From Moritella yayanosii (GTDB lineage Bacteria > Pseudomonadota > Gammaproteobacteria > Enterobacterales > Moritellaceae): a stretch of DNA of 64,000 bases. Location: positions 992,001 to 1,056,000 of the forward strand of contig NZ_LS483250.1 in the NCBI RefSeq assembly GCF_900465055.1, given 5' to 3'. Made by a program: the position numbers and the translations under genes. The notes below the pieces were generated by a model. That model worked only from the letters and a program-made list of their open reading frames with translations, searched no databases and had not been told where the DNA came from. Of the stretch, positions 5,007-15,961 are shown piece after piece. Positions within the stretch are counted from its first letter, which is position 1. Each line of letters starts with the position of its first letter.

Positions 5007-5616
5007 AGACAATAAAATCGCAAAATGCCAAGAATGTAGCCTACTTATCAGTGTCGAGCAGGATGTAAAACAACAGCGTTGTCCGCGTTGTTTTACCCGT
5101 GTTCACTTTCGAATACCGCGTAGTATCCAAAAAACATGGGCCTTATTAATCACCGCAGCGTTCATGATGATTCCTGCCAATATTTTACCTATTAGCACAT
5201 TGACCAGTACCGGTAAGACCACACCGGATACCATTATGTCAGGTACTATCGCATTGGCAAAAAGTGATAACTTAGGCATCGCGATTATTATTTTCATCGC
5301 GTCGATTTTGGTGCCCTTATTTAAAATTATTGGTTTAATACTTATTTTATTATCTGTTCAAAATAAGATATTTATTGCACCAAAACGAAAATTATTATTA
5401 TTTAATGCAATTCATTGGATTGGCAAATGGTCCTTTATGGATTTGTTTGTTATATCGATTATGGTCGCGGTGATCAACCGAGGTAATTTACTCTCAGTCG
5501 ACCCCGGATATGGAGCAACTTGCTTTGGTTTGGTTGTCGTATTAACAATCTTAGCCACTGAAAGTTTTGACACACGTTTAATTTGGGATTTAAACCATAA
5601 AAATGAAAGAAAATAA
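4993..5616 (+). CDS. letA: LetA/PqiA-type membrane protein, C-terminal half
   Basis: The second PqiA repeat, 207 residues from ATG 4993, which overlaps the end of the preceding gene by 14 bases. A longer frame reading begins at 4951, but the 4993 start places the first Cys pair (CQEC) at the expected position, with a second pair CPRC and then four membrane segments carrying the PANILPIST motif. Together with the upstream gene it makes up the equivalent of E. coli LetA. The overlap suggests translational coupling and a one-to-one ratio. A +1 shift would be needed to fuse the two frames, so programmed frameshifting is unlikely. It overlaps letB by another 14 bases. Confidence 0.85.
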   Translation: MQNAKDNKIAKCQECSLLISVEQDVKQQRCPRCFTRVHFRIPRSIQKTWALLITAAFMMIPANILPISTLTSTGKTTPDTIMSGTIALAKSDNLGIAIIIFIASILVPLFKIIGLILILLSVQNKIFIAPKRKLLLFNAIHWIGKWSFMDLFVISIMVAVINRGNLLSVDPGYGATCFGLVVVLTILATESFDTRLIWDLNHKNERK

Positions 5617-8317
5617 CGAACCACAAATGCCGAATAATTGTAATGCACCTAAACCGGTATTACACAAACCGAATGTGATGTCGCCTATCTGGTTACTGCC
5701 AATTGTCGCCGTCTTACTTGGAATTTACCTCATGTACCAAAGCATTGCGCAAGCTGGTATTGAAATACGTGTTCATTTTGACAATGCGAATGGCATTGTG
5801 GAAGGTAAAACCCTGATCAAGTATCAAGGTTTGAATATCGGAAAAGTGAATAAGATTGCATTAGATGACGACCTTAAAGGTGTTTATGTGACCGCCGAAA
5901 TAGACAGTAAAGCGGAACCCGTTTTACGCCGTAATACACAATTTTGGTTAGTCGCGCCCAAAGCTTCAATTGCCGGTATTTCAGGACTGGATGCGTTGGT
6001 CACGGGTAATTATATCAATTTATTACCCGGCGATGGTGAATACAGTATTGAATTTGATGCGGTACAAACAGCACCTAATACCTTACCTGACGATCAAGGT
6101 TTAATTGTACGCTTAACTGCAGATAAACTAGCTTCAGTTCGTCCTGGTTCAGAAATTTTTTATAAAAAGATCCCCGTTGGCCAAGTACACAACTTCACAC
6201 TAGATAAAGACACCGATAAAATATTAATTGAAGCCGTCATTAAAGAACAATACAGCTACCTGGTAAAAGACACTTCGCGCTTTTGGAATGCCAGTGGTAT
6301 TCATGCTGAGTTTGGTTTTAATGGGGTGACAATTCAAACAGAAAGTCTGACCGCGATTATCAGTGGTGCACTGGCGTTTGATTCCCCCGTTGATGGTAAA
6401 CCAGCAGAAAATAACCGCGCCTATCATCTCTATAATAATGTCCGTGATGCTGAGCGAGCGGTTGAAATTGAGTTTAATCTGGCGAATACCAATGACATTA
6501 AAATTGGTAACAATATCTACTTAAATGGCCAACAGGTCGGCGAAATAACCCAAGTTATCACCCAATTGATTGACGTTGAAACCCAACAAACAACACCAAC
6601 GGCAACAGCATTTGCAGATATAGACCCCGAAGTTGTTGAGTTATTGCGTACAGGTACCCGATTCTGGGTGGAAAAAACGACCCTGTCATTTTCTGAGAGT
6701 AAGAATATAGCTAACCTTGTCACTGGTAACTTTATATTATTCACCCCCGGGAAAGGCGAACTACAAACCACATTTGATCTGGTATCAAACGTTGACGATC
6801 TTATTCCGCATAAACAAATTTCGATTTCAGCTAATGATGCTAATGGTTTAGCGGTCGGCAATAAAATCTATTACAAGAATTACCCAGTAGGCCACATCAG
6901 CCACGTCATGTTTAATACCAAAACCAATTTGATTGATTTAAACGTGAACATCTATCAAGATTATGCACATCTACTGCGCCGTTCGACACGCTTTATTAAT
7001 ATAAGTGGTGTAACAGTCAATGCTAGTATCTCAGGTCTTAATATCAAGTCATCACCCATTGCCGCTTTAGTCAGTGGTGGTATCGAACTTGTTAATGATC
7101 CGGTGTTTAAATCGAAACGCCGCAATCAACAATATCAACTTTACCCTTCCCTTGCCCTTGCAAAATTAGGTAGCAATGCGTTTAAGGCCAATAAGACCAT
7201 TACCCTATTAAGTAAACCTAGCCATGTAATTACTAATGGTGCACCCGTTTACTATCGTAAATTAAAAGTGGGTTCGATAGCTGATTTCCGTTTGGCTACC
7301 GACAACGAGCATATTGTCATCTCCTTGGATATCCTCAGCCAGTATGCGCACTTAATTAATAACAACAGCGTGTTTTGGGATGTATCTGGGATTAATATTT
7401 CTGGTAGTTTAAGTAACTTAAAAGTACAAACAGAATCGTTACTGACTATTATCGCTGGTGGCATTAACTTTGATAACATCAAACCGGTTAATGACAACAA
7501 AATCAGCCTTGCTAAATCACACGCAACACATTACAAACTGTTTCGTAGTTTTGCAGCCGCAACCGACGACCGACCAACAGTGATATTAACATTCACATCA
7601 GGTACTGATATCAATGTGGGCACTGAAATTAAATACAAGGGTATCAGTGTCGGTGAAATCAGCGCTATAACGCTAAAAGTTGAGCAAGGTTTTATCGAAG
7701 CCACCGCAAAATTAGACACAGACTATGCAAAATACTTCATACGACAAGGCAGCCAGTACTGGTTAGAGCGTATTGAAGTAAGCTTAAATGGCATTAAAAA
7801 TGCGAATACCTTGCTATCTGGTGCTTATATCAACGTGACGAAAGGTAACGGTAATACCGTCAAACGCTTTAAAGTCCTCAACAGCGCACCCGAAATTGCG
7901 TCTGAAGATGTCGGATTATCCGTCACTGTCATCAGTGAACGATTAATGGGGTTAACTGCGGGTACACCAGTCTACTTCCGCCAGATAGAAGTCGGCTCCA
8001 TAACCCACTCCGAATTGTCAGCGCAAAGTGATAAAGTACTCATCACCTTGAACATTGAACCTAAGTATCAACACTTAGTGCGCAATGATAGTCAATTTTG
8101 GGCTGTTTCTGGATTTAATGTTGATATCGGTCTCACCGGCGCAACTTTAAAAGCCGAGTCATTAAAAGCTATCTTATCTGGTGGTATTGCGTTTGCGACA
8201 CCTAAAACAAATAAAAACAGTCAAATTGCAGCGCCTTTTTCAAAATTTTATTTAGCCCAAGAAGTTAATCCAGATTGGCTTAAGTGGAATACCAAGATAG
8301 AAAAACCAGCTATGTAA
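5603..8317 (+). CDS. letB: LetB/YebT, seven-MCE-domain lipid transport protein
   Basis: A 904-residue protein with a short cytoplasmic N-terminus, one membrane anchor (about residues 28-48, SPIWLLPIVAVLLGIYLMYQ) and seven MCE repeats, each beginning with a strand followed by a G-x-Y/I-x-G-x-x-V-G pattern (for example KYQGLNIGKV, FYKKIPVGQV, YLNGQQVGEI, YYKNYPVGHI, YYRKLKVGSI, KYKGISVGEI, YFRQIEVGSI). E. coli LetB (879 residues, seven MCE rings) forms a tunnel across the periplasm for lipid transport to or from the outer membrane. Length and repeat count fit. The ATG overlaps the second letA gene by 14 bases, implying coupled translation of a LetA1-LetA2-LetB complex. Confidence 0.93.
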   Translation: MKENNEPQMPNNCNAPKPVLHKPNVMSPIWLLPIVAVLLGIYLMYQSIAQAGIEIRVHFDNANGIVEGKTLIKYQGLNIGKVNKIALDDDLKGVYVTAEIDSKAEPVLRRNTQFWLVAPKASIAGISGLDALVTGNYINLLPGDGEYSIEFDAVQTAPNTLPDDQGLIVRLTADKLASVRPGSEIFYKKIPVGQVHNFTLDKDTDKILIEAVIKEQYSYLVKDTSRFWNASGIHAEFGFNGVTIQTESLTAIISGALAFDSPVDGKPAENNRAYHLYNNVRDAERAVEIEFNLANTNDIKIGNNIYLNGQQVGEITQVITQLIDVETQQTTPTATAFADIDPEVVELLRTGTRFWVEKTTLSFSESKNIANLVTGNFILFTPGKGELQTTFDLVSNVDDLIPHKQISISANDANGLAVGNKIYYKNYPVGHISHVMFNTKTNLIDLNVNIYQDYAHLLRRSTRFINISGVTVNASISGLNIKSSPIAALVSGGIELVNDPVFKSKRRNQQYQLYPSLALAKLGSNAFKANKTITLLSKPSHVITNGAPVYYRKLKVGSIADFRLATDNEHIVISLDILSQYAHLINNNSVFWDVSGINISGSLSNLKVQTESLLTIIAGGINFDNIKPVNDNKISLAKSHATHYKLFRSFAAATDDRPTVILTFTSGTDINVGTEIKYKGISVGEISAITLKVEQGFIEATAKLDTDYAKYFIRQGSQYWLERIEVSLNGIKNANTLLSGAYINVTKGNGNTVKRFKVLNSAPEIASEDVGLSVTVISERLMGLTAGTPVYFRQIEVGSITHSELSAQSDKVLITLNIEPKYQHLVRNDSQFWAVSGFNVDIGLTGATLKAESLKAILSGGIAFATPKTNKNSQIAAPFSKFYLAQEVNPDWLKWNTKIEKPAM

Positions 8318-8410: not shown

Positions 8411-9871
8411 GTGCATTCCAATATAAAACTGCCTGAAGATTACCTGACGTTAATAGGTAACATTATTCCCGACCATCTCTCTATGGATGACTTTATAACT
8501 TGCTGCAAAACACCATTGAAAACCAGTGTACGTGTCAATACACTTAAGATCTCTGTTGCAGCATTTAAGCAGCTAGCTAAAACAAAACAATGGTTATTAA
8601 CCCCTGTACCATGGTGTGAAGAAGGTTTTTGGTTAGAACAAGAAAATACCGATACCAAACTCGGTAATAGTTGGGAGCATATTGCAGGCCTTTTCTATAT
8701 TCAAGAAGCAAGCTCGATGCTGCCTGTTACGGCACTATTTAAAGAACAAGTTTCAGGCCCCACCGCACAATATAATACCATCCTCGATTGCGCATCCGCA
8801 CCGGGTTCAAAAACAAGTCAAATAGCAGCACTCTGTAATAATAACAATTTCATCGTGGCTAACGAATTATCATCAAGCCGTTTAAAAGTGCTTAGTGCGA
8901 ACATTAAACGCTGTGGTATCAAAAATGTAGCGCTTAGTCACTATGATGCAAATGTGTTTGGTACTTGGTTACCAGAAATGTTTGATGCCGTATTGCTTGA
9001 TGCGCCTTGTTCTGGTGAGGGCGCGATCCGTAAAGACGACAAAGCCATGCTTAATTGGTCTTTAAAAAGTATCAATGACATCGCCGATATTCAGAAAGAG
9101 TTAATTGACAGTGCATTTAAAGCGTTAAAACCAGGTGGTACTTTAATTTATTCAACCTGTACATTGAACGAAATTGAAAACCAAGCTGTTTGCCAACACC
9201 TACTTGATTTATACCCTGACAATGCAGAAGTTATTCCGCTTAACGATTTATTCCCAACCGCGAATAACTGCTTGACCGCCGAAGGTTTCTTACACGTTTG
9301 GCCACAGATTTATGATAGTGAAGGTTTCTTTGTGGCTAAGTTCACTAAAAAAGAAACGCTGAGTTTACGCCCTATTAAAAAGAAAAAACGCTTAGTCTTC
9401 CCATTCAGTCCAGTTAGCCGTCTCGAAAATGACGCTATTCGTGATTATTTCCGTGATGCATTTAGCTTTGAATTTGAAAGTGGTGTTTTCTATTATCGTG
9501 ATAATGAAATCTGGCTATTCCCGAAAGAGTTCCCTGCTTTTATCGGCAAATTCAAATTTGATCGTATCGGTATTAAAATCGCTGATAAATTCAAAAAAGG
9601 TTTCCGCGCTCAACATGAATGGGCGCGTACCTTTGGTCATCATTGTGATAAAAATACGGTGTCACTGAATATTGAACAAGCGAAACAATACATCATGGGA
9701 CGTGATATTAACTTCTCTGATATCGAGATTGATAATTTAGAGCAACTCCAAGGTGAACTTCTCGTCTTGCTTGAAGGCAGTGTGCTTGGTTTAGGTAAAC
9801 GCGTAAACCAACGTTTAAAAAATAACTACCCGCGTGATCTGGTACGTGATAATAACTTGTTTAACGAATAA
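8411..9871 (+). CDS. rsmF: 16S rRNA m5C1407 methyltransferase RsmF
   Basis: RsmF (YebU) methylates C1407 of 16S rRNA using S-adenosylmethionine. The 486-residue protein aligns along its length with E. coli RsmF: VNTLKISV near the N-terminus, WCEEGFW and GLFYIQEASSMLPV, the SAM motif DCASAPGSKTSQ, the catalytic PCSGEG loop after LLDA, and the second Cys in STCTLNEIEN. The C-terminal part has GLGKRVNQRLKNNYPR, close to the end of the E. coli protein. The start is GTG 8411, matching the family's N-terminal extension before the conserved DDF; the next Met in frame would cut this off. The order letA-letB-rsmF is the same as in E. coli. Confidence 0.95.
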   Translation: MHSNIKLPEDYLTLIGNIIPDHLSMDDFITCCKTPLKTSVRVNTLKISVAAFKQLAKTKQWLLTPVPWCEEGFWLEQENTDTKLGNSWEHIAGLFYIQEASSMLPVTALFKEQVSGPTAQYNTILDCASAPGSKTSQIAALCNNNNFIVANELSSSRLKVLSANIKRCGIKNVALSHYDANVFGTWLPEMFDAVLLDAPCSGEGAIRKDDKAMLNWSLKSINDIADIQKELIDSAFKALKPGGTLIYSTCTLNEIENQAVCQHLLDLYPDNAEVIPLNDLFPTANNCLTAEGFLHVWPQIYDSEGFFVAKFTKKETLSLRPIKKKKRLVFPFSPVSRLENDAIRDYFRDAFSFEFESGVFYYRDNEIWLFPKEFPAFIGKFKFDRIGIKIADKFKKGFRAQHEWARTFGHHCDKNTVSLNIEQAKQYIMGRDINFSDIEIDNLEQLQGELLVLLEGSVLGLGKRVNQRLKNNYPRDLVRDNNLFNE

Positions 9872-10201: not shown

Positions 10202-10840
10202 ATGAACTTCGACCTTACAAATATCTCTGAACTCCCGACTGGCCCTGATGCAGTGCATATTGCCTTGTTCGCGCTTACCCTCATCCTGCTATTAATTACC
10301 CTCGTTAGAGGTGGTAAAAAAACAATTGAAATAGAAAAGATTGTTGAAAAAGAAGTGGAAGTTGAAGTTGAAAAAATTGTAGAGGTTATCAAACACGTAG
10401 AAATTGAGAAAATCGTTGAAGTTGAAAAGATTGTCGAAATCCAAGCCCCTCTACAAGAAGCAAGTCCTGCCGCCGCTTGTCAGTTGTTGTCATTATTACA
10501 AAGTGAAGCACGTTTCATCGATTTTATCCAAGAAGATTTAACCAGTGCCTCTGACGAACAAATCGGTGCCGCAGCCCGTATTATTCATACTGGTAGTAAA
10601 AAAGTAATCAATGAATACTTTACTCTCACGCCAATCCGCAGTGAAGAAGAAGAAAGCCAAGTAACCGTAGCAGCAGGCTTTAACCCATCTGAAGTTAAGC
10701 TAATTGGTAATGTGTTGGGCTCTGCCCCTTACCGAGGCATCTTAGTACACGCAGGTTGGAAAATCAGTAGTGTTAATTTACCTAAACTAGCACAAGGTCA
10801 TAACACCAATATCCTTGCTGCAGCAGAGGTGGAACTATGA
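10202..10840 (+). CDS. DUF2760 membrane-anchored coiled-coil protein
   Basis: A 212-residue protein of unknown function recognised as DUF2760-like. The N-terminus is followed by one membrane segment (about residues 20-40, IALFALTLILLLITLVRG), then a strikingly repetitive stretch (about 42-82) built from IEKIVE/VEKIVEV units that should form a long coiled coil or stalk, then a globular C-terminal domain of about 120 residues with FNPSEVKLIGNV and APYRGILVHAGWKIS. It probably exposes the C-terminal domain to the cytoplasm on a stalk. Its stop overlaps the start of the next Hsp70 gene (ATGA), so the two are translationally coupled. From this context it may be the membrane partner or recruiter for the two Hsp70s; that role is inference. 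Confidence 0.8.
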   Translation: MNFDLTNISELPTGPDAVHIALFALTLILLLITLVRGGKKTIEIEKIVEKEVEVEVEKIVEVIKHVEIEKIVEVEKIVEIQAPLQEASPAAACQLLSLLQSEARFIDFIQEDLTSASDEQIGAAARIIHTGSKKVINEYFTLTPIRSEEEESQVTVAAGFNPSEVKLIGNVLGSAPYRGILVHAGWKISSVNLPKLAQGHNTNILAAAEVEL

Positions 10841-12666
10841 GCGACATAACGATGAGCGAAAAAGTGCCAAAATACAGTATTGGTATCGATTTAGGCACCA
10901 CACACTGTGTATTATCGTATATCAATTTAGAGCACGAAGGTGATAAAGCAGTTAAACAGCTGTTTGCAATTCCTCAGCTATCTACACTTGGTTCGGTAAC
11001 TGAACAATATCAACTGCCTTCTTTTGTCTATCAAGCGCACGAAGATGAAATTAGCAAAGATCAAACGCCATTACCTTGGAACGCGGACAATACCACGCTG
11101 GTGGGTGATGTAGCACGCAACCTTGGGCTTAAAACACCTATTCGTCTAGTGTCGAGTGCTAAAAGCTGGTTAAGTCACGCAACGGTCAGCCCACATGATG
11201 CTATATTACCCTTCGCAAGCCCTGATGAAGTTGAAAAGATATCACCAGTAACTGCAACATCTCAATACTTAAACCATTTAGCTGAAGCTTGGAATCATGC
11301 ACACCCTGATTCACCGATTGCAGAGCAAGATGTTACCATTACCATTCCGGCCTCATTCGATCCCGCCGCGCGTAACTTAACCGCTCAAGCGGCACAAGAT
11401 TTAAACCTTAAACACTTAAATCTACTTGAAGAACCACAAGCGGCTGTATACAGCTGGTTAGAGGCATGTGGTGATGAATGGCGTGATCAAGTCAAGGTAG
11501 GCGATACCATTTTAGTCATCGATATCGGTGGTGGTACAACAGATCTATCATTAATCTCGGTTAACGAATCTGAAGGTAACTTAACATTGTCACGTGTTGC
11601 CGTAGGTGAACATATCCTACTTGGCGGTGATAATATGGATCTTGCACTTGCGTATCGTCTAAAAATGAAATTAATGCAAGAAGGTAAACAACTACAACCA
11701 TGGCAAATTCAAGCAATCACACATGCTTGTCGTGATGCAAAAGAGAAGTTGTTATCCGACGGTGACCTTGATGTAATGCCAATTGTTATTCCAAGTCGTG
11801 GGTCTAAACTGATTGCGGGTACCATGCAAACAGAACTAACACGTGATGAAGTTGAGCAAACTATTCTCGATGGTTTCTTCCCTGCGATTGCTGTGACCGA
11901 GATGCCACAACAAACTACCCGATCGGCATTAACCCAGATTGGTTTACCGTATGCACAAGATGCGGCGATCACCAAACACATTGCACACTTCTTGAATAAA
12001 CAACATGACGCTATCGAGTCAGATGCTGGTGATTTCATTAAGCCAACGGCGGTATTGTTTAATGGCGGAGTGTTTAAATCTGATGCGATTAGTTCTAAGT
12101 TAATCGGTATTATTAACGACTGGTTGATTACAGCGGGCGTTGAAGACGAAGTAAAACTATTGACCGGTATTGATCTCGATCTTGCCGTTGCCAATGGCGC
12201 TTGTTATCACGGTTATGCAAAACAAGGTAAAGGCGTTCGTATTAAAGGCGGCCTCGCAAGCTCATATTACGTGGGTGTTGAAAGCTCAATGCCAGCCATC
12301 CCAGGTTTTGAACCGCCACTAGAAGCTGTTTGTATCGCCCCATTTGGTCTTGAAGAAGGGACTAATGTTAATGTGGCAACACACCAATTTGGTTTAGTTG
12401 TCGGTCAACCGGTTAAGTTTAAGTTTTTCGGTTCAACAGTCCGTCGTGAAGATGTTGTTGGTACCCACCTTGATTTCTGGCAACCAGAAGATCTTGAGCA
12501 ACTACCCGACATCGAAGTGACGCTTGACTCTGCTAACCGCAATAGCGGTGATGTAGTCCCTGTATCACTGTCAGTGACTGTCACTGAAGTGGGTACACTG
12601 AAAGTTGAAGCTATCGCCAACGACAGTGATGAAATTTGGGAAATTGAACTAACGGTTCGCCAATAA
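10837..12666 (+). CDS. Divergent Hsp70 family chaperone, first of a pair
   Basis: A 609-residue Hsp70-type ATPase. Visible nucleotide-binding motifs: phosphate 1 IGIDLGTTHCVLSY (about 16-29), phosphate 2 DIGGGTTDLSLI (about 229-240), the NRVAVGEH/GGDNMDLAL-type region after it, and the adenosine motif VLFNGGVFKSDAI (about 405-417). The C-terminal part is beta-rich and ends at ELTVRQ; it has no recognisable DnaK-like helical lid or EEVD-type tail. It is not dnaK itself: no grpE or dnaJ is adjacent, and the substrate-binding part is diverged. It overlaps DUF2760 by 4 bases and precedes a second, related Hsp70. The likely role is ATP-driven remodelling of an unknown client, perhaps at the membrane. 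Confidence 0.9.
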   Translation: MSDITMSEKVPKYSIGIDLGTTHCVLSYINLEHEGDKAVKQLFAIPQLSTLGSVTEQYQLPSFVYQAHEDEISKDQTPLPWNADNTTLVGDVARNLGLKTPIRLVSSAKSWLSHATVSPHDAILPFASPDEVEKISPVTATSQYLNHLAEAWNHAHPDSPIAEQDVTITIPASFDPAARNLTAQAAQDLNLKHLNLLEEPQAAVYSWLEACGDEWRDQVKVGDTILVIDIGGGTTDLSLISVNESEGNLTLSRVAVGEHILLGGDNMDLALAYRLKMKLMQEGKQLQPWQIQAITHACRDAKEKLLSDGDLDVMPIVIPSRGSKLIAGTMQTELTRDEVEQTILDGFFPAIAVTEMPQQTTRSALTQIGLPYAQDAAITKHIAHFLNKQHDAIESDAGDFIKPTAVLFNGGVFKSDAISSKLIGIINDWLITAGVEDEVKLLTGIDLDLAVANGACYHGYAKQGKGVRIKGGLASSYYVGVESSMPAIPGFEPPLEAVCIAPFGLEEGTNVNVATHQFGLVVGQPVKFKFFGSTVRREDVVGTHLDFWQPEDLEQLPDIEVTLDSANRNSGDVVPVSLSVTVTEVGTLKVEAIANDSDEIWEIELTVRQ

Positions 12667-12718
12667 ACATGATTTAGCAGCATCACGACACCGTTTTATA
12701 TTGATAGATATGTACTTA

Positions 12719-12746
12719 ACTCAGGGCGCTTTACCCTGAGTTTTAT
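12719..12746 (+). terminator. Hairpin between the two Hsp70 genes
   Basis: ACTCAGGG (12719-12726) and CCCTGAGT (12734-12741) form a perfect 8-bp stem with a 7-base loop followed by TTTATT. It is an intrinsic terminator or attenuator that would lower expression of the second Hsp70 relative to the first. Confidence 0.75.
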
Positions 12747-12761
12747 TATATGGAGTTTTTA

Positions 12762-15560
12762 ATGCCCTCACCTGTTTCTAAAACAGCGCAATATGTAATT
12801 GGCATCGATCTTGGCACTACCCACAGTGTTCTTTCTTATAAAAACATCGATGATTATCAAGCCAGCGCGTCCGTTTTTCTCGTAGACCAATTGGTTGGTC
12901 CTGGCGAAGTCGCAAGAAAACCGTTATTGCCTTCATTCCGCTATCACTTTAATGACAACGAAATTGCCACAACCGATTGTGTTTTACCGTGGCAAAAAAT
13001 TAACTTTAACGGTGAAATTAGCAATGTAATTGTGGGTCAATGGGCACGCGATTTAGGCACCAAAACCAAAGGGCGCTTAGTTTCAAGCGCCAAAAGTTGG
13101 CTGTCCCATCCAAGTATCGATGCCCAAGCTGCGATTTTGCCTTGGGCTGTTGAAGATAATATTGAAAAAGTATCGCCTGTTATTGCCAGTGCAAGCTACC
13201 TTGCCCATTTTCAAGCATCTTGGAATTACCATAATCCAGACCATTTACTTGCCGATCAAAACATCACCATCACAGTGCCAGCGTCATTCAATGATACAGC
13301 CCGAGCCTTAACGCTGGCAGCAGCAGATCTGGCCGGCTTAACCAAGGTAACGTTATTAGAAGAGCCTCAAGCCGTTTGTTACGACTGGTATCACCGTAAT
13401 AAACAAGCCAAAACTGATTTAATCGAACATGATAAAACCATGCTGGTTTGTGACATCGGTGGTGGTACAACAGATTTAAGTTTAATCGAAATGTCATTAG
13501 AACATGGTGAATTGAATTTAAACCGTGTTGCCGTGGGCGATCATTTAATGCTCGGTGGTGATAACATAGATTTAGCCTTAGCCCATATTGTTGAATCAAG
13601 AATATCACCAGACCAACGGTTAAAATCAGCTGCATTAGGGCAACTAATACAACAGACTCGCCAAGCAAAAGAACTGTTTTTGTCTGAGCAACCACCTAGC
13701 ACGACATCAATTACTTTACTTGGACGTGGTTCGAAACTGATTGCGCAATCGAAGACATGTGAACTGACAAAAAATGAAGTTATCGATATGGTGTTTAATG
13801 GTTTCTTACCAAATAGTAGCTTTAACGAATTACCAACACACCGAAAAAATGCGGTAGTTGAATTTGGTTTACCTTATACGTCTGATCCTGCGATTTCAAA
13901 ACATATTGCCGAGTTCATCCATACTTATTACGACGTAGACGCAGCTGAAGATTATGATCCTACAATCGTACCAGCGGCAATCCTTGTTAATGGAGGTATT
14001 TTTAATAGCCAGCAAGTGAAATTGCAAATTGAAAAAGTGTTATCCGGTTGGAAAAAACAAAAAGTTCAGATGCTGCACAATGGTAATCCAGACTTGTCCG
14101 TTGCTTATGGCGCGGTTGAATTTGGTTTTGCTAAAATGGGTAAGCAAAAACAAATTGGCGGTGGTAGTCCTCGTAACTATTTCATTGAAATAACCGACCG
14201 TTCGGGTCAGCCTCAGTCCATTTGCCTGTTACCTAAGGGTACCGAAGATGAGCAAGTCATCAATTTAGATAGCCGTTTATTTTCATTAACGATCGGTGAA
14301 CCTATTCGCTTTAATCTTGCGACCACCAGTCATGAAAATAACTTCAAGCCTGGAGATATAATAACAACTGAACTCAAAGGTAAAACGCCGTTACCGCCTT
14401 TTGTCGTTACTATTCCTGAGCACAAAGATCACAAACGTTTTGAGTCCGTGTACTTGTCTTGCAAGCTAAGCAGCATTGGTACCTTACAACTGGAATGTGT
14501 GAGTGAAACCAACAGTAAACAACGTTGGGCATTAGAGTTCTCTGTTCGACCAAGCCGTAGCAACAAAATATCCGCAAATGACTCTAAAGATATCAAGGAT
14601 ATTAAGCAGCTTCACCCTAACCTGCCCGATGCAATTAAATTAATTGAAGCTGTGTATGGTGCCAGTAGTAAAAAAAGTGATCCTAAATTAGTTAAATCAT
14701 TACGTACTGATCTGGATAAACGTCTGGGTAAACGTGATACTTGGGATACCGATTTATTACGTGAACTTGCAGCCCCTTGTTTACAATTTGCTAAAAACCG
14801 CCGCCGCACAGAACAACATGAACGTAATTGGTTAAAACTAACCAGCTTCCTACTTCGTCCGGGCTTTGGCTACCCTGCTGATGATTGGCGTATTGAACAA
14901 ATTTGGCCAATATTCAAATCAGCGATTCAATACAATAAATCAACCCAGTCATGGAGTGATTGGTGGAATTTATGGCGCCGTATTGCTGGTGGCCTTAACG
15001 AACAACAGCAAATCGAAATATACGATACGCTTTCTATCTACTTTGTTGAAGACAGTAATAAACATGCCAAAATCATCAATCAGGCTAAACAACGCAGCTA
15101 TGATGATATTATTCGACTGGCCGCCTCACTCGAACATATTCCCGTGGCGCTAAAAGTGGAGTTTGGTGAATACTTACTGGCTAAATTAAAGAAACCACAA
15201 AATCAGCAATTACATTGGTGGGCATTAGGTCGTGTCGCATCTCGTGTTGCGTTTTATGGTAGCCAGCATAATGTCATCCCACGTCATATTGTTGAAACCT
15301 GGCTAAATACATTACTTGCAGCTAATTGGCAAAAAGAACCTCACATTGCTTTTGCCGCCGTCATGATTGCCAGAAAAACCGGTGATAGAGAAATGGATAT
15401 TCAAGATAAAGTCAGAGACGCTGTGCTAGATAAATTAACACAGAGTAAATTATCGGACGCTTGGTTAGCATTAGTACGTGATGTGCAGTCGTCAGATGAC
15501 ACTGTAATGAAGCGTATCTTTGGTGACAGTTTACCAACTGGTTTAACGTTACTGTCATAG
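12762..15560 (+). CDS. Large Hsp70 family protein with DUF3731-type C-terminal extension
   Basis: 932 residues from ATG 12762, preferred over the in-frame ATG at 12750 because GGAG (12752-12755) lies six bases upstream. The first ~600 residues are an Hsp70 related to the preceding gene: IGIDLGTTHSVLSY, DIGGGTTDLSLIEM, GGDNIDLALA and the adenosine motif ILVNGGIFNSQQ. After about residue 610 comes a ~320-residue, mostly helical extension rich in Trp (WRIEQIWPIF, SWSDWWNLWRRIAGG, LHWWALGRVASRV), which I assign to DUF3731. This domain replaces the usual lid. The gene lies 95 bases after the first Hsp70, behind a hairpin, and is convergent with the next gene. It probably acts with the upstream Hsp70 and DUF2760 protein; biochemical function unknown. 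Confidence 0.88.
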   Translation: MPSPVSKTAQYVIGIDLGTTHSVLSYKNIDDYQASASVFLVDQLVGPGEVARKPLLPSFRYHFNDNEIATTDCVLPWQKINFNGEISNVIVGQWARDLGTKTKGRLVSSAKSWLSHPSIDAQAAILPWAVEDNIEKVSPVIASASYLAHFQASWNYHNPDHLLADQNITITVPASFNDTARALTLAAADLAGLTKVTLLEEPQAVCYDWYHRNKQAKTDLIEHDKTMLVCDIGGGTTDLSLIEMSLEHGELNLNRVAVGDHLMLGGDNIDLALAHIVESRISPDQRLKSAALGQLIQQTRQAKELFLSEQPPSTTSITLLGRGSKLIAQSKTCELTKNEVIDMVFNGFLPNSSFNELPTHRKNAVVEFGLPYTSDPAISKHIAEFIHTYYDVDAAEDYDPTIVPAAILVNGGIFNSQQVKLQIEKVLSGWKKQKVQMLHNGNPDLSVAYGAVEFGFAKMGKQKQIGGGSPRNYFIEITDRSGQPQSICLLPKGTEDEQVINLDSRLFSLTIGEPIRFNLATTSHENNFKPGDIITTELKGKTPLPPFVVTIPEHKDHKRFESVYLSCKLSSIGTLQLECVSETNSKQRWALEFSVRPSRSNKISANDSKDIKDIKQLHPNLPDAIKLIEAVYGASSKKSDPKLVKSLRTDLDKRLGKRDTWDTDLLRELAAPCLQFAKNRRRTEQHERNWLKLTSFLLRPGFGYPADDWRIEQIWPIFKSAIQYNKSTQSWSDWWNLWRRIAGGLNEQQQIEIYDTLSIYFVEDSNKHAKIINQAKQRSYDDIIRLAASLEHIPVALKVEFGEYLLAKLKKPQNQQLHWWALGRVASRVAFYGSQHNVIPRHIVETWLNTLLAANWQKEPHIAFAAVMIARKTGDREMDIQDKVRDAVLDKLTQSKLSDAWLALVRDVQSSDDTVMKRIFGDSLPTGLTLLS

Positions 15561-15580
15561 CGTTTAGTTAACGCTATTTT

Positions 15581-15608
15581 AATAGGTGGTCTTCATTGAC
15601 CACCTATT
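15581..15608. terminator. Bidirectional terminator after the Hsp70 cluster
   Basis: AATAGGTGGTC (15581-15591), a 6-base loop, and GACCACCTATT (15598-15608) form a perfect 11-bp stem flanked by T-rich sequence on the plus side and A-rich sequence on the other. It lies between convergent genes and can serve both. Confidence 0.8.
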
Positions 15609-15670
15609 GTTTAGTTTTAACATATTCATAGATTACTCATGAATGGTTAAAACAATTTATCATTTACTTG

Positions 15671-15961
15671 TTATTCTTCAATACCATCTTTAATAAACCA
15701 CATATTAGTAAAGCCTAATTTAGTAAAATGGTTTTTACGGAATTCTCTTACTGATTTAGTACCTTTCGATACATCTTCAACTTGTTTTTCCATTATCAAA
15801 TATTGCGTTAAGTCGATGCCTTCTTCTGCAGCTGCCGCTTCATAGATATGGTGGAACTGTCTGTATGAAAATGGAATTTTCTTATCTTGTTTTTTATATG
15901 TATAGGTAATTAGGTGGGCCAAAATGCCTCCAAAAAATGATTTAATTCGATACATCGTCAC
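15671..15961 (-). CDS. Small hypothetical protein
   Basis: A 96-residue protein that I do not recognise. It starts MTMYRIKSFFGGILAHLITY, a short amphipathic or weakly hydrophobic stretch, then a charged region with IYEAAAAEEGIDLTQYL and a basic segment EFRKNHFTKLGF. There is no obvious signal peptide or metal motif. It is codirectional with tatD, 62 bases downstream of that gene's end, and convergent with the large Hsp70. It may begin at the Met in codon 3. The reading frame has normal codon use and an upstream purine stretch, so I judge it probably real, but with no function. Confidence 0.5.
   Translation of the reverse strand: MTMYRIKSFFGGILAHLITYTYKKQDKKIPFSYRQFHHIYEAAAAEEGIDLTQYLIMEKQVEDVSKGTKSVREFRKNHFTKLGFTNMWFIKDGIEE

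Follow-up and report, generated by a model that had tools for sequence, protein, structure and literature searches.

A conserved operon of a DUF2760 protein and two divergent Hsp70s: a candidate membrane-attached chaperone machine with a GrpE-like partner

How could two Hsp70 proteins work together when no J-protein is encoded beside them? This question is raised by a cluster of three genes at 1002-1008k of the Moritella yayanosii genome, which we analyzed within a window of 64,000 nucleotides, the whole stretch of DNA under study (contig NZ_LS483250.1, positions 992,001 to 1,056,000). The first gene encodes a DUF2760 protein and the other two encode the Hsp70s that we call HspA and HspB. The reading that we favor, with a probability of about 0.5, is that the cluster encodes a dedicated machine of two Hsp70s, attached to the inner membrane and independent of J-proteins, whose partner is GrpE-like.

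The three open reading frames were found where a preliminary description of the locus had placed them, together with the ATGA overlap between genes 1 and 2 and the hairpin that separates genes 2 and 3 (Table 1). Eight hairpin sites of that pattern were detected vs 5.3 +/- 2.3 in shuffled sequences, which makes the pattern match weak evidence by itself. In the Pfam search, the DUF2760 domain was recognized at residues 90-211 of the first protein (PF10816, 169 bits), the Hsp70 profile was matched in HspA only up to position 301 of 599, and HspB presented an Hsp70 match plus DUF3731 (PF12531, 317 bits, residues 688-934). These matches agree with the Hsp70 lacking a recognizable lid and with the DUF3731-like extension proposed earlier.

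Table 1. Features of the three-gene cluster, in positions of the window
Feature	Position	Strand	Basis
DUF2760 gene (gene 1), 212 aa; C-terminal domain predicted to be GrpE-like, membrane attachment probable	10202..10840	+	ORF; PF10816, 169 bits; AlphaFold2 model
Predicted membrane helix of DUF2760, codons of aa 17-36	10250..10309	+	Model; hydrophobic segment in 84/100 homologues
Variable linker of DUF2760 with IEKIVE-type repeats, aa 41-85	10322..10456	+	pLDDT <50 (aa 41-57, 59-74); repeats in 63/100
DUF2760 alpha/beta domain (conserved), aa 89-212, with near-invariant AEVEL C-terminus	10466..10837	+	pLDDT mostly >90; aligned to GrpE; AEVEL end in 92/100
ATGA stop/start overlap of genes 1 and 2, 4 nt	10837..10840	+	ORFs; 1- or 4-nt overlap in 86/97 loci
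HspA (gene 2), lidless Hsp70, 609 aa; nucleotide-binding domain (NBD) ~aa 12-464, then putatively beta-rich C-terminal region aa 475-609	10837..12666	+	ORF, Pfam, alignments, profile comparison
Hairpin of 9 bp with a T-rich tail, separating genes 2 and 3	12718..12742	+	Hairpin search
HspB (gene 3), 936 aa, Hsp70 with DUF3731 replacing the lid	12750..15560	+	ORF, Pfam, alignment
Predicted armadillo/HEAT-like alpha-solenoid of HspB, aa 625-924, overlapping DUF3731 (aa 688-934)	14622..15521	+	PF12531; model; fold matches
Terminator-like hairpin 3' of gene 3, 12 pairs	15580..15609	+	Hairpin search

Co-occurrence in other genomes had been named as a check of the cluster, and in the two genome samples searched DUF2760 and both Hsp70s behaved as one conserved unit. 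In the first sample (n=299), DUF2760 was present in 22 genomes and DUF3731 in 21, and all 21 of the latter also encoded DUF2760; in the second (n=250), the families were found in 10 and 9 genomes, respectively, with 9 of 9 shared. The two exceptions with DUF2760 only are contigs that break off ~90 and ~20 bases past HspA, and no closed genome with just one of the families was seen in these samples. The order DUF2760-HspA-HspB on the same strand was kept in 20/20 loci of a first set and in 71/80 of a second collection; in four genomes where HspB was not beside HspA, DUF3731 was still encoded elsewhere. The overlap of genes 1 and 2 (Table 1) was counted taking the most upstream start codon as the gene start. 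No further flanking gene common across lineages was found in the 37 of 100 loci compared, the largest flank cluster being of five loci linked in a chain through GGDEF-type proteins. A small upstream gene was common to four methanotroph-type loci, and a divergent upstream gene with a GGDEF-like motif was present in 19 of the 35 Vibrio/Aliivibrio loci, where it is a matter of lineage synteny. The trio is carried by many Vibrionaceae, by Moritella, Methylococcales and relatives of Duganella, and also, in Burkholderia, Caballeronia and Bradyrhizobium, by plasmids or secondary replicons of large size; it is common to many marine and soil bacteria. Both families were absent from all 14 control genomes, which were the only sampling beyond Pseudomonadota, and the E. 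coli control genome has neither of them.

Judged from the alignments, HspA and HspB belong to the Hsp70 superfamily and have complete sets of ATPase residues, as the preliminary description had read from their motifs. The profile of the HspA NBD matched those of DnaK, HscA and HscC with a probability of 99.7% (E 1.4e-25, hhalign), and the closest solved chain by sequence was the NBD of DnaK (E 7e-12). Residues D8, T11, E171, D194, T199 and D201 are retained in 97/97 HspA sequences, the catalytic lysine of which was read from other alignments since its column is off by one in the residue-count alignment. In HspB, D8, T11 and K70 are retained in 91/91 sequences and E171, D194, T199 and D201 in 90/91, with one row gapped. 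The C-terminal regions of the two proteins match each other (99.8%, hhalign); the substrate-binding domain of DnaK scored 0.5% and 0.1% against those of HspA and HspB, respectively, with position and length that fit. An alpha-helical lid is absent from both, as HspA stops where the lid would start and HspB carries DUF3731 there.

The protein encoded by gene 1 has an N-terminal helix, hydrophobic or amphipathic in character, which a variable linker joins to a compact domain where helices precede strands. The helix at residues 17-36 is predicted and hydrophobic in an AlphaFold2 model, which is a monomer with a low-confidence linker. Among 100 homologues the N-terminal segment is strongly hydrophobic in 84, and the remaining 16 mostly have a less hydrophobic helix of amphipathic appearance. 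DUF2760 is probably attached to the membrane, in keeping with its initial description as a membrane protein. The coiled-coil stalk of that description is not conserved: the IEKIVE-type repeats are present in 63 of 100 homologues, the model has pLDDT under 50 at residues 41-57 and 59-74, and we discarded the stalk as a defining feature of the family.

What could such a protein do for the two Hsp70s? The model of DUF2760 shows a modest resemblance to GrpE, the nucleotide exchange factor that speeds ADP release from Hsp70, dimerizes through a long helix and has a fold of helices or a four-helix bundle leading into a beta wing. In a Foldseek search, the first of 350,542 PDB chains was GrpEL1 bound to mortalin (E 0.11, probability 0.47, TM 0.24/0.30), GrpE accounting for one of the 50 best matches. 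In the VIA comparison, six of the 16 entries listed at Z of at least 2 were GrpE (9a81, 9blt, 9bls, 4ani, 1dkg and 3a6m), with Z values of 3.6-5.0 that lie under the 7-8 typical of models without a clear match, and the unrelated helical entry 4xzj (Z 4.7) ranks amid them. Superposition on GrpE gave an rmsd of 5.6-6.8 over 95-99 residues in four VIA rows and 3.1 over 51 residues for 3a6m, the value of 34.8 for 9a81 being meaningless. The last pair aligned with 1dkg joins residue 212 of the model to residue 192 of the chain, where the AAMVTV strand ends. A viral structure library gave no useful match to the model.

A GrpE identity by sequence was rejected. PF01025 did not match the window DUF2760 protein at E values up to 10, nor was it among the best 25 of 38 families for 50 DUF2760 members. 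A search of PDB sequences with the DUF2760 profile, at E up to 10, brought up no GrpE (best match of any kind, E 0.48), and hhalign comparisons with GrpE, with several cuts and three solved GrpE sequences added, gave probabilities of at most 0.8%, scores that were equaled by column-shuffled decoys in 41/100 and 17/100 cases. When the alignment was forced, the two domains paired from one end to the other, KGW falling on KGY and AEVEL on the final strand of GrpE, a result that is non-significant. From the model, we consider a GrpE-like fold of the DUF2760 domain rather probable. As for the earlier remark that no GrpE is adjacent, the ordinary GrpE gene of this genome does lie far away (3850k vs 1002-1008k), but the remark may not hold in essence, as the GrpE-like part may be encoded by gene 1.

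On the basis of this predicted fold we tentatively propose that DUF2760, attached to the membrane, is the nucleotide exchange factor of HspA and HspB or, at the least, binds their subdomain IIB. It could instead serve as a scaffold in the membrane, or a client-like tether, bringing both Hsp70s to the inner membrane without exchange activity, its GrpE likeness reflecting a common helix-plus-beta arrangement. The low Z and weak E values of the GrpE matches and the missing sequence relation are consistent with a tether, and the strictness of AEVEL as the extreme C-terminus (92/100 homologues) would also suit a docking motif. Furthermore, E267 of DnaK, the salt-bridge partner of the cleft, is replaced by R in 92/97 HspA and 90/91 HspB sequences; by analogy with what a review reports for HscA (PMC8215388), this change may point to rapid intrinsic release of ADP, which would make an exchange factor dispensable. 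However, it is hard to credit to chance that the matches listed include so many entries of GrpE, itself an Hsp70 partner. The GrpE-signature loop is also kept at a DnaK-like length: it has 36 residues in DnaK, 30 in HscA and 28 in HscC vs 38 in 96/97 HspA (37 in one) and 38-40 in 90/91 HspB. We consider the tether rather unlikely.

A second alternative assigns the exchange activity to HspB, which would act on HspA in the manner of Hsp110 or through a DUF3731 armadillo clamp on subdomain IIB, as HspBP1 and Sil1 do, DUF2760 only anchoring the pair. The DUF3731 region, in the position of the lid, is modeled with 17 helices (pTM 0.84) and is predicted to fold as an armadillo/HEAT solenoid, matching such proteins with Z up to 15.8 in VIA, values that are partly generic for repeats. 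According to PMC4753570, this fold also serves the exchange factors HspBP1 and Sil1, and the armadillo domain of HspBP1 has ~260 residues, a size that the solenoid resembles. The identity between HspA and HspB is 38%, vs 24-28% to DnaK and HscA over partial alignments, and HspB is retained in the genome even when its gene sits away from DUF2760-HspA; both facts would suit an HspB devoted to HspA. The 50 VIA matches listed for DUF3731 are importins, CAND1, designed armadillo proteins and other repeat proteins, and the absence of HspBP1 and Sil1 from them says nothing either way. Against this alternative, the ATPase residue set of HspB is complete, and we regard it as unlikely.

The preliminary description had suggested that DUF2760 replaces a J-protein, in which case it would stimulate ATP hydrolysis. 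Its probable membrane attachment and operon linkage would fit this role, as would the neighborhood, where we also found no J-domain gene: PF00226 has four matches in this genome, at 1484k, 2168k, 2296k and 3711k, all distant from the cluster. However, PF00226, the J-domain with its HPD motif, gave no Pfam match at E up to 10 in the window DUF2760 protein, the model of which looks like GrpE, and, as read from the alignments, HspA and HspB lack most of the J-domain and linker contacts of DnaK. N170 of DnaK, a J-domain contact, is E in 97/97 HspA and 90/91 HspB sequences, and D393 is lost in the same proportions, the other HspB row being gapped in both cases; R167 is retained in 2/97 HspA and 18/91 HspB, whereas DnaK, HscA and HscC retain all three residues. 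The columns of DnaK 390-393 hold R/K/T, G/A/S, G and I/T/L in HspA and mostly K/R, I, G and G in HspB, not the hydrophobic VLLLD linker between the domains, in a MAFFT alignment that may be off by one or two residues. The stand-in role was abandoned as improbable. That the trio is not a standard DnaK system was borne out; its two Hsp70s lack the standard lid, the DnaK-type linker and most J-domain contacts.

Finally, that the operon is mobile defense or plasmid-maintenance cargo, not a chaperone for the cell's own proteins, is hardly credible despite its presence on 11 plasmid records (two conjugative by PLSDB typing) and a Thiodictyon copy, with HspB not adjoining, among genes annotated as anti-phage, since there were zero matches in 50,697 phage records, PADLOC gave one weak match (22.8-24.3 bits) to the Hsp70 ATPase region and none to DUF2760, the flanks of 37 loci held no common defense neighbor, and many Vibrionaceae carry it; a defense system thus found little support.

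In the favored membrane-attached machine, the GrpE-like domain of DUF2760 would be the first element and its action as exchange factor, or subdomain IIB binder, on HspA and HspB the second. The two Hsp70s would cooperate: HspA would bind clients in an open manner, and HspB would be its partner, with the solenoid as a lid substitute that could hold or present clients or act on the NBDs as HspBP1 does; DUF3731 may thereby be the lid or client adapter of the preliminary description. Their cycle would be independent of a J-protein, and the job would most likely be the handling of proteins located at the inner membrane or close to it. A further step, which we hold to be possible but doubtful, is that the trio represents a fourth class of bacterial Hsp70 in which a GrpE-fold protein, and not a J-protein, places and times two Hsp70s at the membrane: a lidless HspA and an HspB whose armadillo solenoid is both lid and built-in HspBP1-like NBD clamp, with localized nucleotide exchange freeing clients at the membrane. 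If DUF2760 is a membrane-attached exchange factor, Hsp70 release would be directed to a particular location within a bacterial cell, something that a review considers refuted for the GrpE of E. coli (PMC8215388), and the cycle would run without a J-protein.

In V. cholerae, VC1373-VC1375 is very probably the same operon, VC1375 being presumably the DUF2760 gene. VC1374 and VC1373 are both named DnaK-related and the three genes are listed as one unit in PMC9201469 and PMC5816637; they appear in gene lists and in one promoter study, in which HapR activates the VC1375 promoter in vivo and in vitro (PMC10328515). VC1374 is also used as a strain name in PMC9608740. A LuxR/HapR-type palindrome upstream of DUF2760 scored 9.23 of 14 vs 9.34 in shuffled sequences for 35 Vibrio/Aliivibrio loci, 9.25 vs 9.31 for 12 Photobacterium loci and 8.88 vs 8.6 for 25 other loci. 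As this is no better than shuffled, HapR control is not extended beyond V. cholerae. A carbonylated "DnaK-related protein" peptide of P. angustum, given in PMC3706606, was rejected as HspB since its first six residues occur in 0/71 HspB sequences. We found no paper on a DUF2760/two-Hsp70 operon, nor a description of such a chaperone machine, in the open-licence library searched, as the preliminary description had supposed.

How does the trio compare with known systems? With DnaK-DnaJ-GrpE it shares the Hsp70 ATPase core and, as modeled, a partner in which a small beta domain comes after helices; it differs in having two Hsp70s without the standard lid and no J-protein gene nearby. GrpE itself is distributed homogenously in the E. 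coli cell, according to PMC8215388, and DUF2760 differs from it in its predicted membrane helix and in showing no detectable sequence relation. HscA-HscB and HscC-DjlC are likewise specialized additional Hsp70 systems, and HspA and HspB have R at the E267 position as HscA does. However, HscA and HscC retain R167, N170 and D393, have J-protein partners and have a shorter GrpE-signature loop. HspB recalls Hsp110 and Grp170, exchange factors with an extended substrate-binding domain (PMC4753570), in being Hsp70-like with an extended helical C-terminal part, and, by predicted fold and the description in the same source, HspBP1 and Sil1, whose armadillo fold acts on Hsp70; unlike these eukaryotic proteins, in HspB the DUF3731 solenoid is fused to a bacterial Hsp70.

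The DUF2760 gene and the genes of two Hsp70s, which we named HspA (lidless) and HspB (with DUF3731), constitute a real conserved three-gene chaperone module. A full-text search of open-licence papers found neither a description of this module nor any paper on DUF2760 or DUF3731.

Location of the three genes of the module in the window
Gene	Position	Strand	Basis
DUF2760 protein	10202-10840	+	ORF + Pfam
HspA (Hsp70 without lid)	10837-12666	+	ORF + Pfam
HspB (Hsp70 with C-terminal DUF3731)	12750-15560	+	ORF + Pfam

In a phylum sample of 299 genomes, DUF2760 was found in 22 and DUF3731 in 21. Among 250 genomes from the order of genome G082 the numbers were 10 and 9, with nine in common (6/10 positive genomes also belong to the phylum sample), and among 48 genomes from the class of genome G030 they were 7 and 6, these positives being genomes already in the phylum sample. 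Neither family was present in any of 14 control genomes. The association of the three genes exceeds chance, and the view of the trio as one unit, advanced in the preliminary description, was borne out: the genomes with DUF3731 all fall within those with DUF2760 (21/21; 9/9). The two exceptions, the DUF2760-only genomes G026 and G358, have contigs that stop ~90 and ~20 bases past HspA, and HspB is not visible in them for this reason.

The order DUF2760-HspA-HspB on one strand was observed in 20/20 loci from the phylum sample, where 20 of the 22 positive genomes were inspected (G026 and G053 were left out). Locus L048, with ~2.9 kb between HspA and HspB, is an exception to the close packing. By tblastn, the trio is in order in G440 and G488 (in the latter DUF3731 is split over two frames), HspA reaches or nears the contig end in G477, G026 and G358, and G053 has ~3 kb past HspA without HspB, its DUF3731 being on a different contig. 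A second collection yielded at least 588 pattern matches; 430 of the 588 listed were confirmed, and among the best 80 of these 430, the full ordered trio was found in 71, DUF2760-HspA in six and a complete DUF2760 alone in three, in which HspA runs off the contig end. Two of the six (L099, L121) are on short contigs and the other four (L092, L120, L123, L138) have no HspB after HspA; DUF3731 is present in 4/4 genomes of L138, L092, L123 and L131, beside genes other than HspA. The HspB copies of these four genomes (L194, L195, L196, L197; three of the genomes are methanotroph-type) have moved away from DUF2760-HspA, and two of the copies (L195, L197) have a small membrane-like ORF of 114-116 aa directly 3' of them. 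Taking the most upstream start codon as the start, the first two genes overlap by 1 nt in 54/97 loci and by 4 nt in 32/97.

No further neighbour common across lineages was found in the 37 loci compared. Upstream of the trio in the window there are a gene whose 904-aa product contains seven MlaD (MCE) stretches (5603-8317) and, after it, an RsmF-type rRNA methyltransferase gene (8411-9871), neither among the conserved neighbours. Immediately past the operon lies a DUF2960 gene (15671-15961, - strand), followed by what we take to be TatD hydrolase, DNA polymerase III delta', thymidylate kinase and MltG genes. In L095, L110, L122 and L138, three of them methanotroph-type, a small gene (128-177 aa, secreted-looking) on the same strand, 12-123 bp before DUF2760, is a possible lineage-specific fourth member. 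In 19/35 Vibrio/Aliivibrio loci, a divergent gene for a protein of ~420-540 aa bearing a GGDEF-like motif lies 175-599 bp upstream of DUF2760 (in L066, at 5867-7447), and it may correspond to VC1376.

Among the matches listed, the named ones were from Vibrio, Aliivibrio, Photobacterium, Psychromonas, Moritella, Marinobacterium, Methylococcales, and Duganella and relatives. The closest named relative among them was a Moritella MAG (92% identity in the DUF2760 domain), and the window belongs to a Moritella-like gammaproteobacterium. The search of phage records gave no match. Eleven plasmid records were found: Burkholderia (4), Caballeronia (3), Bradyrhizobium (2), Thiodictyon and a Comamonadaceae bacterium. 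The trios of Bradyrhizobium pCB82_1 (L160) and pCC829_3 (L159) are on conjugative plasmids, one ~1 kb before groES-groEL and the other with trb conjugation genes a few kb away. Thiodictyon plasmid pTs485 (L161) carries DUF2760-HspA without an adjoining HspB, flanked by anti-phage-annotated genes (DUF1156 protein, phospholipase D-like) and a TIR-domain protein.

VC1373-1375 of V. cholerae are very probably the same operon. In the published passages, HapR activates the VC1375 promoter in vivo and in vitro (PMC10328515), VC1374 is among the genes of a screen for repression in biofilms (PMC9201469) and is tabulated in a polymyxin/two-component study (PMC5636140), and VC1373 has a value of -1.04 in a riboflavin expression table (PMC5816637). 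In B. pseudomallei, a dehydrogenase mutant has less of a 65-kDa 'Hsp70 family protein' (PMC7085900). This protein is probably HspA, since the forward primer published for it reads GEHILL, which is conserved in HspA. A Thiodictyon proteome table includes a 'DnaK-related protein' (PMC6413534). As excerpted, none of these mentions comes from work devoted to the trio proteins themselves.

HspA and HspB share 38% identity, and each shows 24-28% with DnaK or HscA of the same genome, in partial alignments. In the alignment, the ATPase residues are complete in both. N170 (DnaK numbering, as below) is presumably a J-domain contact position of DnaK. R167 and the linker of Hsp70 are described as contacting the J-domain HPD motif (PMC8215388). 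All three features are kept in DnaK, HscA and HscC; they are lost nearly throughout in HspA and mostly in HspB, where R167 is still R in 18/91. At the lid position HspA terminates and HspB runs on into DUF3731. The regions C-terminal to the NBD match each other by profile and gave no profile match to the DnaK substrate domain, so that position, length and a weak motif are the basis of the label SBD-beta.

The model of HspB residues 602-936 is a 17-helix solenoid (pTM 0.84). Foldseek listed SF3b, importins and MO25 (best E 0.026), and the best VIA matches were importin beta, CAND1 and designed armadillo proteins, with Z reaching 15.8 over 279 residues; as a Z below about 13 can be generic for helical repeats, these matches support the fold class, not function.

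The AlphaFold2 model of the DUF2760 protein, built from 50 aligned sequences, has a mean pLDDT of 80.9. In residues 89-212, mostly over 90, helices (89-139) precede strands (140-211); confidence is fairly high for helix 17-36, though not for the linker. The top Foldseek match among 350,542 PDB chains was GrpEL1 with mortalin (E 0.11), with no second GrpE among the 50 matches listed. When 333 Foldseek chains were re-aligned with VIA, GrpE made up 6/16 entries at Z 2 or more, including E. coli, human mitochondrial, Geobacillus and Thermus proteins, with low Z values and, in one of the six (9a81), a meaningless rmsd. The 1dkg alignment pairs DUF2760 93-212 with GrpE 86-192, so that AEVEL at the C-terminus is matched with the AAMVTV end of GrpE. 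In the published description, GrpE consists of a stalk, a four-helix bundle and beta wings, and one wing opens the cleft of the Hsp70 (PMC4753570). Judging from the model, the DUF2760 domain probably has a GrpE-like fold. Membership in the GrpE family was not adopted, given the low Z values and the negative sequence tests with decoys. The earlier idea that the DUF2760 protein stands in for a J-protein is probably wrong, because the J-domain contacts are mostly lost and the model is GrpE-like. We infer, at roughly even odds, a membrane-attached GrpE-like partner that would serve two J-independent Hsp70s.

Regarding the use of an exchange factor, two tests on the Hsp70 side disagree. HscA is reported to have a deletion of DnaK's GrpE signature and HscC to lack it, which suggests that neither uses GrpE (PMC8215388). 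The loop at this place has 36 aa in DnaK, 30 in HscA and 28 in HscC; it has 37-38 aa in 97/97 HspA and 38-40 aa in 90/91 HspB, with its own conserved sequence. An RGSKLI-type string is conserved in both proteins in this loop, which aligns with DnaK 270-305; it replaces the signature and could be the site that binds the partner. On the other hand, at E267, the salt-bridge position of the cleft, 92/97 HspA and 90/91 HspB have R, so nucleotide exchange may be fast without help; HscA likewise has R at this position.
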